The notes under the pieces were generated by a model that saw only the letters and a program-made list of their open reading frames with translations, made no database searches and was not told where the DNA came from. Below are positions 3,538 to 9,497 of a DNA stretch of 64,000 nt, one piece after another. Source of the stretch: Hyphomicrobiales bacterium (GTDB lineage: Bacteria; Pseudomonadota; Alphaproteobacteria; Rhizobiales; Beijerinckiaceae). Both the position numbers and the translations under genes were made by a program. How positions within the stretch are numbered: position 1 is the first letter of the stretch; every line of letters starts with the position of its first letter. The stretch is from the NCBI GenBank assembly GCA_026400555.1, contig JAPLOW010000170.1, positions 1-64,000 on the forward strand. The letters run 5' to 3'.

Positions 3538-4572
3538 ATGCTCGCACGCCTGAAGGACTACCTCTGGCCGCTGGTGGGCATCGTCGCGGTGATCTGGTCC
3601 GTCCGGCTGCTCTATTTCAAGCTCGAGGCCGAGGCCGCGACCAACCCGCTGGTCAAGGCGGCGCTCGACAAGGGCGATATTCTCTCGAACATCGCGACCA
3701 TTGCGCGGGTCATCGGTGGCAAGGTAGCCGCGATACCGCCCGATGGCTTCGCCCTCGCGACGCTGTCGGCGATCCTCGCCTACCTCGCCCTCGGCTGGTA
3801 CGACAAGCTCGCGCTGATGCACCTGAAGAAGGACAGGGGCATTTCGTTCCCCTATGTCGCCACCACGGCCTTCGTGACCTATGCGATCGCCCACAACATC
3901 GGGGCGAGCGTGCTGTCCGGCGGCGCGGTGCGCTACCGGGCCTATACGGCCAAGGGGCTGACGGGTCCTGAGGTCGCGATTCTGGTCGCCATCTGCACGC
4001 TGACCTTCTTTTACGCCACGGCCCTGATGCTCGGCTTCGCACTGATCGGCGCGCCGCATCTGCTCGAGCCGATGGCGCAACTGTCAAGCTGGTTCGCTGT
4101 CTCGGAAACCACGGCGCGGCTGGCCGGCCTCGCGCTGCTGACCGCCTGCATGTTCTACATGATCGGCGCTCTGCTCGCATTGCCGGCGTTCACCATCAAG
4201 GGCACGGAGGTGGCCTATCCAAAGGCCCGGATCGTGGCGATCCAGACCGTGATCGCCCCGCTCGAGATCATCGGTGCCGCCGGCATCATCTACTTCGCCC
4301 TCCCCGCAGAGAACCACCCCGGCTTCCTCCTCGTCCTCGGGGCGTTCCTGCTGTCGTTTTCCGCCGGCCTCGTCAGCCAGGTGCCGGGCGGCGTGGGCGT
4401 GATGGAGGCCATCTTTCTTGCCCTGATGCCCGATGTGCCGGCCTCCTCGGTGTTCGCGGCCCTGCTGGTCTGGCGGCTGCTCTATCTGATCCTGCCGCTG
4501 GTCGTCGCCATCCCCATCGTACTGCTGTTCGAGCGGGCGCGTTATGCGGCCGGGCACCCCAAACCCGTATGA
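3538..4572 (+). CDS. Multi-pass membrane protein, UPF0104 / MprF flippase-domain-like
   Basis: Many TM segments; NIGASVLSGGAVRYRAYTAKGLTGPEV and SAGLVSQVPGGVGVMEAIFLALMP motifs of the MprF N-terminal/UPF0104 family. Confidence 0.82.
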   Translation: MLARLKDYLWPLVGIVAVIWSVRLLYFKLEAEAATNPLVKAALDKGDILSNIATIARVIGGKVAAIPPDGFALATLSAILAYLALGWYDKLALMHLKKDRGISFPYVATTAFVTYAIAHNIGASVLSGGAVRYRAYTAKGLTGPEVAILVAICTLTFFYATALMLGFALIGAPHLLEPMAQLSSWFAVSETTARLAGLALLTACMFYMIGALLALPAFTIKGTEVAYPKARIVAIQTVIAPLEIIGAAGIIYFALPAENHPGFLLVLGAFLLSFSAGLVSQVPGGVGVMEAIFLALMPDVPASSVFAALLVWRLLYLILPLVVAIPIVLLFERARYAAGHPKPV

Positions 4573-4868
4573 CGCCTGTTGTCCGTCAGGAGATCGCCAT
4601 GGCCTTCGTTTGCGACATTCCCGCCGTGCCCACCACCCAGACGGATGATGACGCCGTCCGCATCACGCGCTGGGATTTCGCGCCCGGCGCCGTCACCGGC
4701 TGGCACAGCCACGGCTGGCCCTATTTCGTGATCATGCTGACGCCGGGCATCCTGCGCGTCCACAACGGAACGGCCCACGACGTGATGAACGGCTCGGACC
4801 ATCCGATCGCGTTTGTCGAGATCGAGGTGAAACGCCCTGACAGGCTGGTGATGCTGCCGGAGGGGTAA
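4569..4868 (+). CDS. Small cupin domain protein
   Basis: WDFAPGAVTGWHSHGWPYFVIMLTPGILRVHNG cupin core; start overlaps upstream stop. Confidence 0.78.
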   Translation: MTPVVRQEIAMAFVCDIPAVPTTQTDDDAVRITRWDFAPGAVTGWHSHGWPYFVIMLTPGILRVHNGTAHDVMNGSDHPIAFVEIEVKRPDRLVMLPEG

Positions 4869-5141
4869 ATGGCGCGCATATGCATGGTCTCGATAATGTC
4901 GTCAGGCGCTTACGGGTAGTTTTGCGAAGAGACTATTCGCACTGACGAAATTGATACCATCTCTCCACCATTCTACCATAAGTCAAAAAGACAATATAAA
5001 GGTCATGAATATGTCATTTTGTACGGCGATATGCGATGGAAGGGGCGAGGATTGACTAAACCAATCTGTTGTACAGAAATCATTGCCATCAGTGGGCCGT
5101 TTCTTCTGCGCCTCTTGCGATAGCCTGCGCTGTGCCTTTCC

Positions 5142-5536
5142 ATGCTGATGGCTTTGACAGCCTGCGCTTCGCCGAATTTCATGACGCGGGTGGTTGAAGG
5201 GTCAGTGACGACGACACTGTGGGACAACGAGCCATGCGAAGCGCGGTTGGACGACATTCGAGGGGTTGACATGCGCATGGAAAACGGCGCGCGATTGAGG
5301 GGAAAAACCAGAACGATGCGCTTCTTTCGGAGCTGCGAAATATTGGTGCGCAATGTTCGGAGGCTGCAAGCCTGACGCGATGCGTCATCAACCGCCAGAT
5401 CGTCAAAGAGGACTGTGGCCGCGGCCAATGCAGCCGCACGTCACGCGAATGGACGTTGACCGTCTCATGGAAGCCTGGACCCAGGCTTTTTGATCCGCGC
5501 ATCCGGCTGGACCTGAAGATTTCACCGCTCGGCTAA
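5142..5536 (+). pseudogene. Cys-rich lipoprotein-like ORF split over two frames (-1); frame 0 from 5142, continuing in frame 2 to TAA at 5534-5536
   Basis: Frame 0: MLMALTACASPNFMTRVVEGSVTTTLWDNEPCEARLDDIRGVDMRMENGARLRGK; frame 2 is open from 5270 to 5533: ...GKNQNDALLSELRNIGAQCSEAASLTRCVINRQIVKEDCGRGQCSRTSREWTLTVSWKPGPRLFDPRIRLDLKISPLG*; slippery heptamer G GGA AAA at 5300-5306. Confidence 0.5.
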
Positions 5537-5711
5537 ACTGCTGCTTTAACAGTCATTTTTGAGTTGCGGTGACATGAAATCAACTGCCTAGATCTCTCGC
5601 CCTGCCTCCCAGCATACGAGAACAGGGTCACTTTTCGTGCGCTGCAAGAAGCGATCCTGTCCCTGAAATGCTGACCGCATGGGACGCCCGATTCATCAGC
5701 GCCACCGCCCC

Positions 5712-7886
5712 TCACACACTCCCCACCGTCTTCAGCCGCGCCCTTGGGTGGATTTCGGCCTGCGCCAGAACAGGGGTTTCGCGCCGGAAGCGTTCGATGA
5801 TCTGGCGCACAAAGGGCCTGGCGTGGCCGGAGCAGACCAGCACGGGCATCTCGCCCATGCGTGCCGCTTCCTCGAAGCGCTCGCGCGTCGTCTTGACGAA
5901 TTCCTGCAGCTTGGACGGCTGCATGGCGAGGTGACGGTTGTCCTGTTCGCCGACGATCGCCTCGCCGAACGCGCCTTCCCAGGCCGGTGACAGGGTAATG
6001 ATCGGCAGCGTGCCGTTGGCCTGCGTGTACTGCGCGCAGATCTGGCGGCCGAGGCGCGAGCGCACATGCTCAACGATGTCGCGCGGGTTCTTCATCGAGC
6101 CCGCCGCTTCCGAAATGCCCTCGATGATGTTGCCAAGGTCGCGGATCGAGACGCGCTCGGCCAGCAGGAGCTGCAGCACACGCTGGATGCCGGTGGTGGA
6201 AATCTGCTGCGGCACGATCTCCTTGACCAGTTCGGCATGCTCCTTGGGCAGTTCGCGCAGCAGCTTCTGGGTTTCGACATGGCTGAGAAGTTCAGGCATG
6301 TTGGCTTTGAGCACCTCGGTCAGGTGCGTCGAGATCACGGTCGCTGCGTCGACGACCGTGTAGCCGCGCAACTGCGCCTCGTCGCGCAACGAGCTGTCGA
6401 TCCATGTGGCGGGCAGGCCGAAGGTCGGCTCCAGCACATGCTGCCCGGGCAGGTCCACCTGTCCGCCCATCGGGTCCATGCACATGAACTGGTTGGCGTA
6501 GACCGTGCCCTGCCCCGCCTCGATCTCCTTGACCTTGACGATGTAGAGCGACGCATCGAGTGCCACATTGTCGACGATCCGCACGCTCGGCATGACGAAG
6601 CCGAACTCGCCGGCCAGCTGGCGGCGCAGCGCCTTGACCTGCTCGGTCAACCTGTCTTCGCCGAGGCTGCCGTCGACCAGCGGCAGAAGCCCATAGCCGA
6701 TCTCGATCTTGAGATCGTCCATCTTGAGCATGTCGGTCATGGTCTCCTCGCGCGAGGCGTCCACGCCGCCTGCCGGGGTCTTGCCTGAGGCGATGTCCTG
6801 CGCGATGCGCTGGGCATCCTTGTCCGTGCCGAGCGCCTTCTGGATCTTGCCGAACTTCCAGGCGAGATAGGCCGATCCGGCGGCCAGCGTCGCGAACGGG
6901 ATGAACGGAATGCCGGGCAGAAGGGCCATCACGCCCATCACGCCGGCGGACATGCCGAGCGCCTTGGGATAGCCCGACATCTGCTTGATCAGCGCCTTGT
7001 CGGCGGCACCGCGCACGCCAGCCTTCGACACCAGCAGGCCGGCCGCGGTCGACACGATCAGCGCCGGAATCTGGCTGACGAGGCCATCGCCGACCGACAG
7101 CATGGTGTAGCTGGTCGCAGCCGCGCCGAACGACATGCCGCGCTGCGCCACCCCGATCAGGATGCCGCCCACGACGTTGATGAAGGTGATGATGATGCCG
7201 GCGATGGCGTCGCCGCGCACGAATTTCGAGGCGCCGTCCATGGCGCCGAAGAAGGCCGCCTCGTCTTCCAGCGCCTTGCGGCGGCGGCGCGCCTCGTCCT
7301 GGTCGATCAGCCCGGCGGAGAGATCGGCATCGATCGCCATCTGCTTGCCCGGCATCGCGTCAAGCGTGAAGCGCGCGGCGACTTCCGCGATGCGCCCCGA
7401 ACCCTTGGTGATGACGATGAAGTTCACCAGTACGAGGATGACGAAGACGATGACACCGATGACGAAGTTGCCGCCCATGATGAAGCCGCCAAAAGCTTCG
7501 ATGACATGGCCCGCAGCCTGCGGCCCCTCATGGCCATGGGTCAGGATCAGCCGGGTCGAGGCGATGTTCAGTCCCAGCCTGAGCATGGTCACGACCAGAA
7601 GTACGGTCGGAAAAGACGAAAACTCGAGCGGCTCCTCGATGAACAGGGCTGTCATCAGCACCAGCACCGACAGGATGATCGAGACCGCCAGCAGCATATC
7701 GAGCAGCAGTGGCGGCAGCGGCATGACGAACACGACAAGGATGCCGATGACGCCGAAAGCCAGCAGCAGGTCCGGACGGCGCGCCAGCGCGCCGATCTCT
7801 CCGAAGCTCGGCAGCGCAAATCCCCCACCGGCCCGCGGGGGCAAGCCTGGCGCCTGCGGGGCCCGGCCCGCCGTCGCATCACTCAT
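5712..7886 (-). CDS. flhA: Flagellar biosynthesis protein FlhA
   Basis: 724 aa; TM domain with LNIASTRLILTHGHEG...AGHVIEAFGGFIMGGNFVIG and FHIPEP-type KGSGRIAEVAARFTLDAMPGKQMAIDADL. Confidence 0.97.
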   Translation of the reverse strand: MSDATAGRAPQAPGLPPRAGGGFALPSFGEIGALARRPDLLLAFGVIGILVVFVMPLPPLLLDMLLAVSIILSVLVLMTALFIEEPLEFSSFPTVLLVVTMLRLGLNIASTRLILTHGHEGPQAAGHVIEAFGGFIMGGNFVIGVIVFVILVLVNFIVITKGSGRIAEVAARFTLDAMPGKQMAIDADLSAGLIDQDEARRRRKALEDEAAFFGAMDGASKFVRGDAIAGIIITFINVVGGILIGVAQRGMSFGAAATSYTMLSVGDGLVSQIPALIVSTAAGLLVSKAGVRGAADKALIKQMSGYPKALGMSAGVMGVMALLPGIPFIPFATLAAGSAYLAWKFGKIQKALGTDKDAQRIAQDIASGKTPAGGVDASREETMTDMLKMDDLKIEIGYGLLPLVDGSLGEDRLTEQVKALRRQLAGEFGFVMPSVRIVDNVALDASLYIVKVKEIEAGQGTVYANQFMCMDPMGGQVDLPGQHVLEPTFGLPATWIDSSLRDEAQLRGYTVVDAATVISTHLTEVLKANMPELLSHVETQKLLRELPKEHAELVKEIVPQQISTTGIQRVLQLLLAERVSIRDLGNIIEGISEAAGSMKNPRDIVEHVRSRLGRQICAQYTQANGTLPIITLSPAWEGAFGEAIVGEQDNRHLAMQPSKLQEFVKTTRERFEEAARMGEMPVLVCSGHARPFVRQIIERFRRETPVLAQAEIHPRARLKTVGSV

Positions 7887-9176: not shown

Positions 9177-9497
9177 ATGGAACGCAGAACTTTCCTGATG
9201 GGGCTGTTTGGTGGACTGGCAGCAACAGCCATTGGACCAAGCCTTGCCGAGGCCGCAACCGAGACGACGCCGACGCAGCCGGTGGCGCAGGTGCCGGCGA
9301 CCATTGAGGTCGCCGCGGACGACAAGAAGGCCCTTGACGAGACCGACAAGGAGTTCAGCCAGTACTACTATCGCCGCCGCCGCATCGTGCGCCGCCGCGT
9401 GATCTATCGCCGCCGCTATGTGCGCCGCGTCTACTATCGGCGTCCGGTCCGGCGCGTTTACTATCGCCGCCCTGTCCGCCGCGTCTTCTTCTACTGA
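9177..9497 (+). CDS. Tat-signal-like exported small protein with Arg/Tyr-rich repeat tail
   Basis: MERRTFLMGLFGGLAATAIGPSLAEA leader, acidic middle, tail YYYRRRRIVRRRVIYRRRYVRRVYYRRPVRRVYYRRPVRRVFFY; GGAGGA RBS upstream. Confidence 0.72.
   Translation: MERRTFLMGLFGGLAATAIGPSLAEAATETTPTQPVAQVPATIEVAADDKKALDETDKEFSQYYYRRRRIVRRRVIYRRRYVRRVYYRRPVRRVYYRRPVRRVFFY

Follow-up and report, generated by a model that had tools for sequence, protein, structure and literature searches.

A split lipoprotein-like reading frame with a slippery heptamer in a Hyphomicrobiales genome is very probably a recently decayed gene

We find that the split reading frame at 5142–5536 of the window, by which we mean the whole 64,000-nucleotide stretch of Hyphomicrobiales DNA analysed here, is very probably a recently decayed copy (a pseudogene) of a narrow, accessory family of Cys-containing lipoproteins, and that the slippery heptamer within it is coincidental. 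An intact homologue is found at the same place in a related genome, and the window copy carries more than one disabling lesion, namely a TAG codon and a one-base frameshift. The initial annotation had offered a programmed −1 frameshift, a recent one-nucleotide indel and a homopolymer sequencing error as possible readings, and had judged the latter two simpler than programming. The one-frame gene of the relatives agrees with an indel, whereas programming is not supported. The features discussed below are collected in Table 1.

Table 1. Features of the locus and of related copies; positions are those of the window unless a contig or locus is given.
Feature	Position	Strand	Basis or remark
Accessory stretch holding the broken gene, cupin-like gene to flhA	4869..5698	.	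found in the window's genome (G000) and in G081, lacking in G080
Probable remnant of the original 5′ coding part, ended by TAG	5052..5123	+	alignment with relatives
TAG nonsense codon in the signal peptide	5121..5123	+	alignment; TGG (Trp) in G081 and G082
Frame-0 ORF of the initial annotation	5142..5375	+	matches the intact relative up to the break; no match for the tail beyond the heptamer
Interval one base short versus the intact relative	5267..5310	+	strongly diverged, position within it not resolvable
−1 frame, C-terminal half of the lipoprotein	5270..5536	+	four conserved Cys, ends TAA
G GGA AAA heptamer	5300..5306	+	in −1 slip register; no conservation among relatives
Orthologous lipoprotein gene of G081	L025 1498-2004	-	position and 65% protein identity
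Second family copy of the window's genome, beside a LolD-like gene	G000:C79:22789-23255 (L022 1406-1875)	-	broken
Degraded family copy	G080:C20:246588-246878 (L050)		in-frame stops and frame breaks
Degraded family copy	G081:C87:4500-4643 (L055)		third copy in G081; fragment with stop

The layout first described for the locus is confirmed from the letters. Frame 0 runs from ATG 5142 (MLMALTAC) to TGA 5373–5375, the −1 frame is open from 5270, after TGA 5267–5269, to TAA 5534–5536, and the X XXY YYZ heptamer G GGA AAA at 5300–5306 is correctly placed for a −1 slip out of frame 0, the codons of which read AGG (5298–5300), GGA (5301–5303), AAA (5304–5306) and ACC (5307–5309) across the site. The 131-aa read-through protein had been quoted correctly, and the Cys series noted in it is borne out, since all three intact relatives share the four Cys that the −1 frame encodes. 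The reported lack of ATG in the −1 frame also holds; the overlap is furthermore without GTG or TTG, and a scan for the three codons finds a late TTG at 5456 as the sole start-type codon of this frame.

Among 67 genomes of the genus, residues 2–131 of the read-through protein match, with 65% identity, a gene with a single frame and no stop in a same-genus pond MAG (Hyphomicrobiales bacterium D1_MAG_00033, contig JAIXUP010000009.1; G081 in the following). The whole 64-kb window is collinear with contig C81 of G081 at ~91% nucleotide identity. As the gene is flanked in both genomes by a cupin-like gene and by the 3′ end of flhA, the G081 gene is the orthologue by position. The two copies share the site, the four Cys and the C-terminal end, but the G081 copy has one open frame, TGG in place of TAG and no slippery heptamer. 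It covers both halves of the window gene, so that homology is not restricted to the frame-0 product. Two more distant relatives, one on contig C23 of G081 and one in the genome G082, are likewise intact, in one frame and without a heptamer in register, and the shift is not conserved.

Codons 1–89 of the G081 ORF align with frame 0 of the window gene and codons 84–168 with its −1 frame; both alignments are gap-free, with an offset of exactly one base between them. The missing base falls within 5267–5310, where divergence is too strong to fix its exact site; the MAFFT alignment has the gap near 5291. A search with the 77-aa frame-0 product matches G081 over residues 2–52 only, so that homology ends just before the heptamer, which counts in favor of a decayed gene.

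The other lesion lies in an upstream part of the gene that the initial annotation overlooked, together with the nonsense codon there. ATG 5142 is probably not the ancestral start, since the gene continues upstream in the same frame and is interrupted by the TAG within the signal peptide. G081 and G082 have RVLQWPxLCLAxxxALTAC in common, where the window reads RLLR*PALCLSMLMALTAC. The exact ancestral start codon we infer from the alignments: TTG 5052 is aligned with TTG in G081 and ATG in G082, a later candidate, TTG 5115, is aligned with the ATG of the paralogs, and both precede TAG 5121–5123. A lipobox with Cys at +1 (LTAC) is present in the window, G081 and G082 and supports the lipoprotein ancestry proposed at the outset, but the signal peptide, with its basic n-region and hydrophobic stretch whole in the relatives, is cut by the TAG in the window, with only MLMALTA left before the Cys. 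These seven residues, none of them basic, are probably too short for a lipoprotein export signal, and a start at ATG 5142 would be predicted to give a product without a usable one. Both lesions would abolish function, judging from the sequence, and they probably arose on the window's branch. They are known from the window's genome alone, G081 being the closest sequenced relative of the locus.

We suggest that a small exported lipoprotein with four conserved cysteines was originally encoded here in one frame, by a gene that would have been an accessory insertion between the cupin-like gene and flhA. In the window lineage, a nonsense mutation would have interrupted the signal peptide, and the poorly conserved middle stretch would have lost a net one base, shifting the 3′ half into the −1 frame, so that the GGGGAAAAA run in the overlap would read as a slippery heptamer by accident. 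Translation from any start before 5121 would halt at the TAG, translation from ATG 5142 would end at 5375, and a working lipoprotein would not be expected from the locus.

The accessory nature of the insertion can be followed in G080, where the matches to window 4776–4866 and 5699–5988 are separated by just 4 nt (1909 and 1913) and 4867–5698 is missing, without any match. In this genome the cupin-like gene directly adjoins flhA, and the flhA region is 92% identical to that of the window. The accessory stretch has no match in G026, G034, G075 or G031 either. The neighboring cupin-like gene (window 4569–4868) lacks, without loss of frame, 19 residues that are present in G081 (118 aa) and G080; the gap falls in the cupin-like region, the score is far under the Pfam cut-off, and this gene may be decaying too.

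A profile of the three intact members finds the family in no more than four genomes of the genus, plus one marginal match in a fifth, and among 398 genomes of the order it matches only in the window's own genome. Low-scoring matches in other genera (E 0.003–0.1) were taken as chance, and tblastn of a plasmid collection gave no match. Pfam and NCBIfam returned nothing meaningful for the intact relatives, a STE3 match at E 0.018 being far below its cut-off. The AlphaFold2 model of the G081 protein is fair (pLDDT 71.8, pTM 0.58), and as Foldseek of this model against the PDB gave no match with E ≤ 0.001, we claim no fold or function. Paralogs are found by a LolD-like ABC transporter gene, intact on G081:C23 and broken on G000:C79 and G080:C20. 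They have the same lipobox and G..C........C.I.R core as the window gene, but are only about 25–30% identical to it and occupy a different genomic site, and the broken copies have different lesions. Compared with G081:C23, the copy on G000:C79 lacks one base, a deletion of its own, and its lipobox has Val instead of Gly. The lipoprotein family is narrow, accessory and repeatedly broken, and matches no Pfam or NCBIfam family. Between the G081:C81 and G082 genes, the signal-peptide region is 86% identical in DNA whereas protein identity in the mature parts is only about 30%.

Against G081, dN/dS of the window gene is 0.24 for codons 31–74 (frame 0) and 0.20 for codons 93–168 (−1 frame), and both halves have been under purifying selection in the past. 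Lack of selection on the −1 frame, which would have spoken against its being coding, is not seen; because of the value of 0.20 we conclude that this frame once encoded a selected protein, and together with the G081 homology it bears out the initial view of the −1 frame as meaningful. Since a pairwise dN/dS averages both branches and all time before the lesions, the low values fit a recently broken gene and do not show that the shift is used. With no relaxed constraint in the pairwise values, either the decay is recent or most of the divergence is older than the decay. The dS values of the gene, 0.62 and 1.09 against G081, clearly exceed the median over the genes of the window (0.23), which indicates that these alleles have diverged for longer, or faster, than the sequence around them. 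For the pair on G000:C79 and G081:C23, dS is 0.37 and dN/dS 0.43 before the break. The last ~50 nt of the window gene are identical to G081 despite the high dS elsewhere, and this mosaic within 5142–5536 suggests recombination or allele replacement.

Alternatively, the one-base gap at the GGGGAAAAA run could be an artefact of sequencing or assembly, the gene being alive and in one frame, which we consider unlikely. Homopolymer runs are error-prone, the G000 assembly is fragmented (262 contigs, 85% complete), and purifying selection on both halves is what such a gene would show. On the other hand, an indel error leaves TAG 5121–5123 unexplained, and the family copy on G000:C79 is broken too, on another contig than the window and outside any long homopolymer. 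Most other genes of the window are in frame relative to G081, and the base quality of the window is not poor in general, since flhA (724 aa) and fliI (444 aa) match G081 over their full length. In the GeneTack survey, singleton frame transitions with intact homologues were assigned to indel mutation or sequencing error (PMC3711429). The window gene resembles such singleton "fs-genes" (PMC3711429) in that the frame transition is found in one genome only and the relatives are intact, but differs from them in the additional nonsense codon and the second broken paralog, which favor true decay.

Programmed −1 frameshifting at X XXY YYZ heptamers is known from dnaX and IS3-type transposases (PMC4066793, PMC5009743), and the window heptamer is like these in having the right register within an overlap of two open frames. 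It is unlike them in that neither the motif nor the two-frame layout is conserved in the relatives, which encode the protein in one frame, and in that the product would not be exported. That the ribosome is programmed to shift at G GGA AAA here, giving a 131-aa fusion, seems to us very improbable, even though both parts are conserved (dN/dS about 0.2). The 50-nt stretch beginning 4 nt downstream of the heptamer has a moderately stable fold (z −2.52, 4/200 shuffles), but longer stretches are unremarkable (z −1.01 and −0.56), and when the sequence was read by eye no Shine-Dalgarno-like stimulator was seen 10–14 nt upstream of the heptamer. Counting in-register XXXYYYZ sites that are preceded by 40 or more codons and whose −1 frame reaches at least 150 nt past the frame-0 stop, we find five on the two strands of the window, this one included, while 20 first-order Markov sequences of the same composition have 2 to 8 (mean 4.55), and the heptamer arrangement is at chance level in the window. 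The TAG would furthermore leave the fusion without a usable signal peptide. Recoding common to both copies in the genome was also considered and rejected: the break on G000:C79 lies elsewhere and has no in-register heptamer, and a GGGAAAG further on in that copy is out of the −1 register.

Frameshifting that compensates for an indel is known to be possible (PMC5009743). A remnant still active in this manner, with occasional −1 slippage at G GGA AAA and re-initiation at ATG 5142, shortly behind the TAG, yielding a little full-length, non-exported protein under selection, would be a very improbable state of the locus. A reading of the locus as two separate small genes, with the 77-aa frame-0 product and that of the −1 frame each functional alone, can practically be dismissed: the overlap resembles that sometimes seen in coupled genes, but TTG 5456 is the first start-type codon of the −1 frame, nothing related to the frame-0 tail was found, and the relatives encode the halves as one protein.

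For the annotation of such loci, the decayed gene described here illustrates that an indel that occurred recently within a G/A run or close to it can imitate a canonical slippery heptamer, and that the sequence of a near relative decides between slippery site and indel. Beyond annotation the decayed gene matters little and is an ordinary case, while the family itself may interest students of accessory surface proteins in Hyphomicrobiales. Elsewhere in the window, at 9208–9497, lies a small exported-looking protein with C-terminal YYRRPVRRV repeats, the number of which differs from that in G081.
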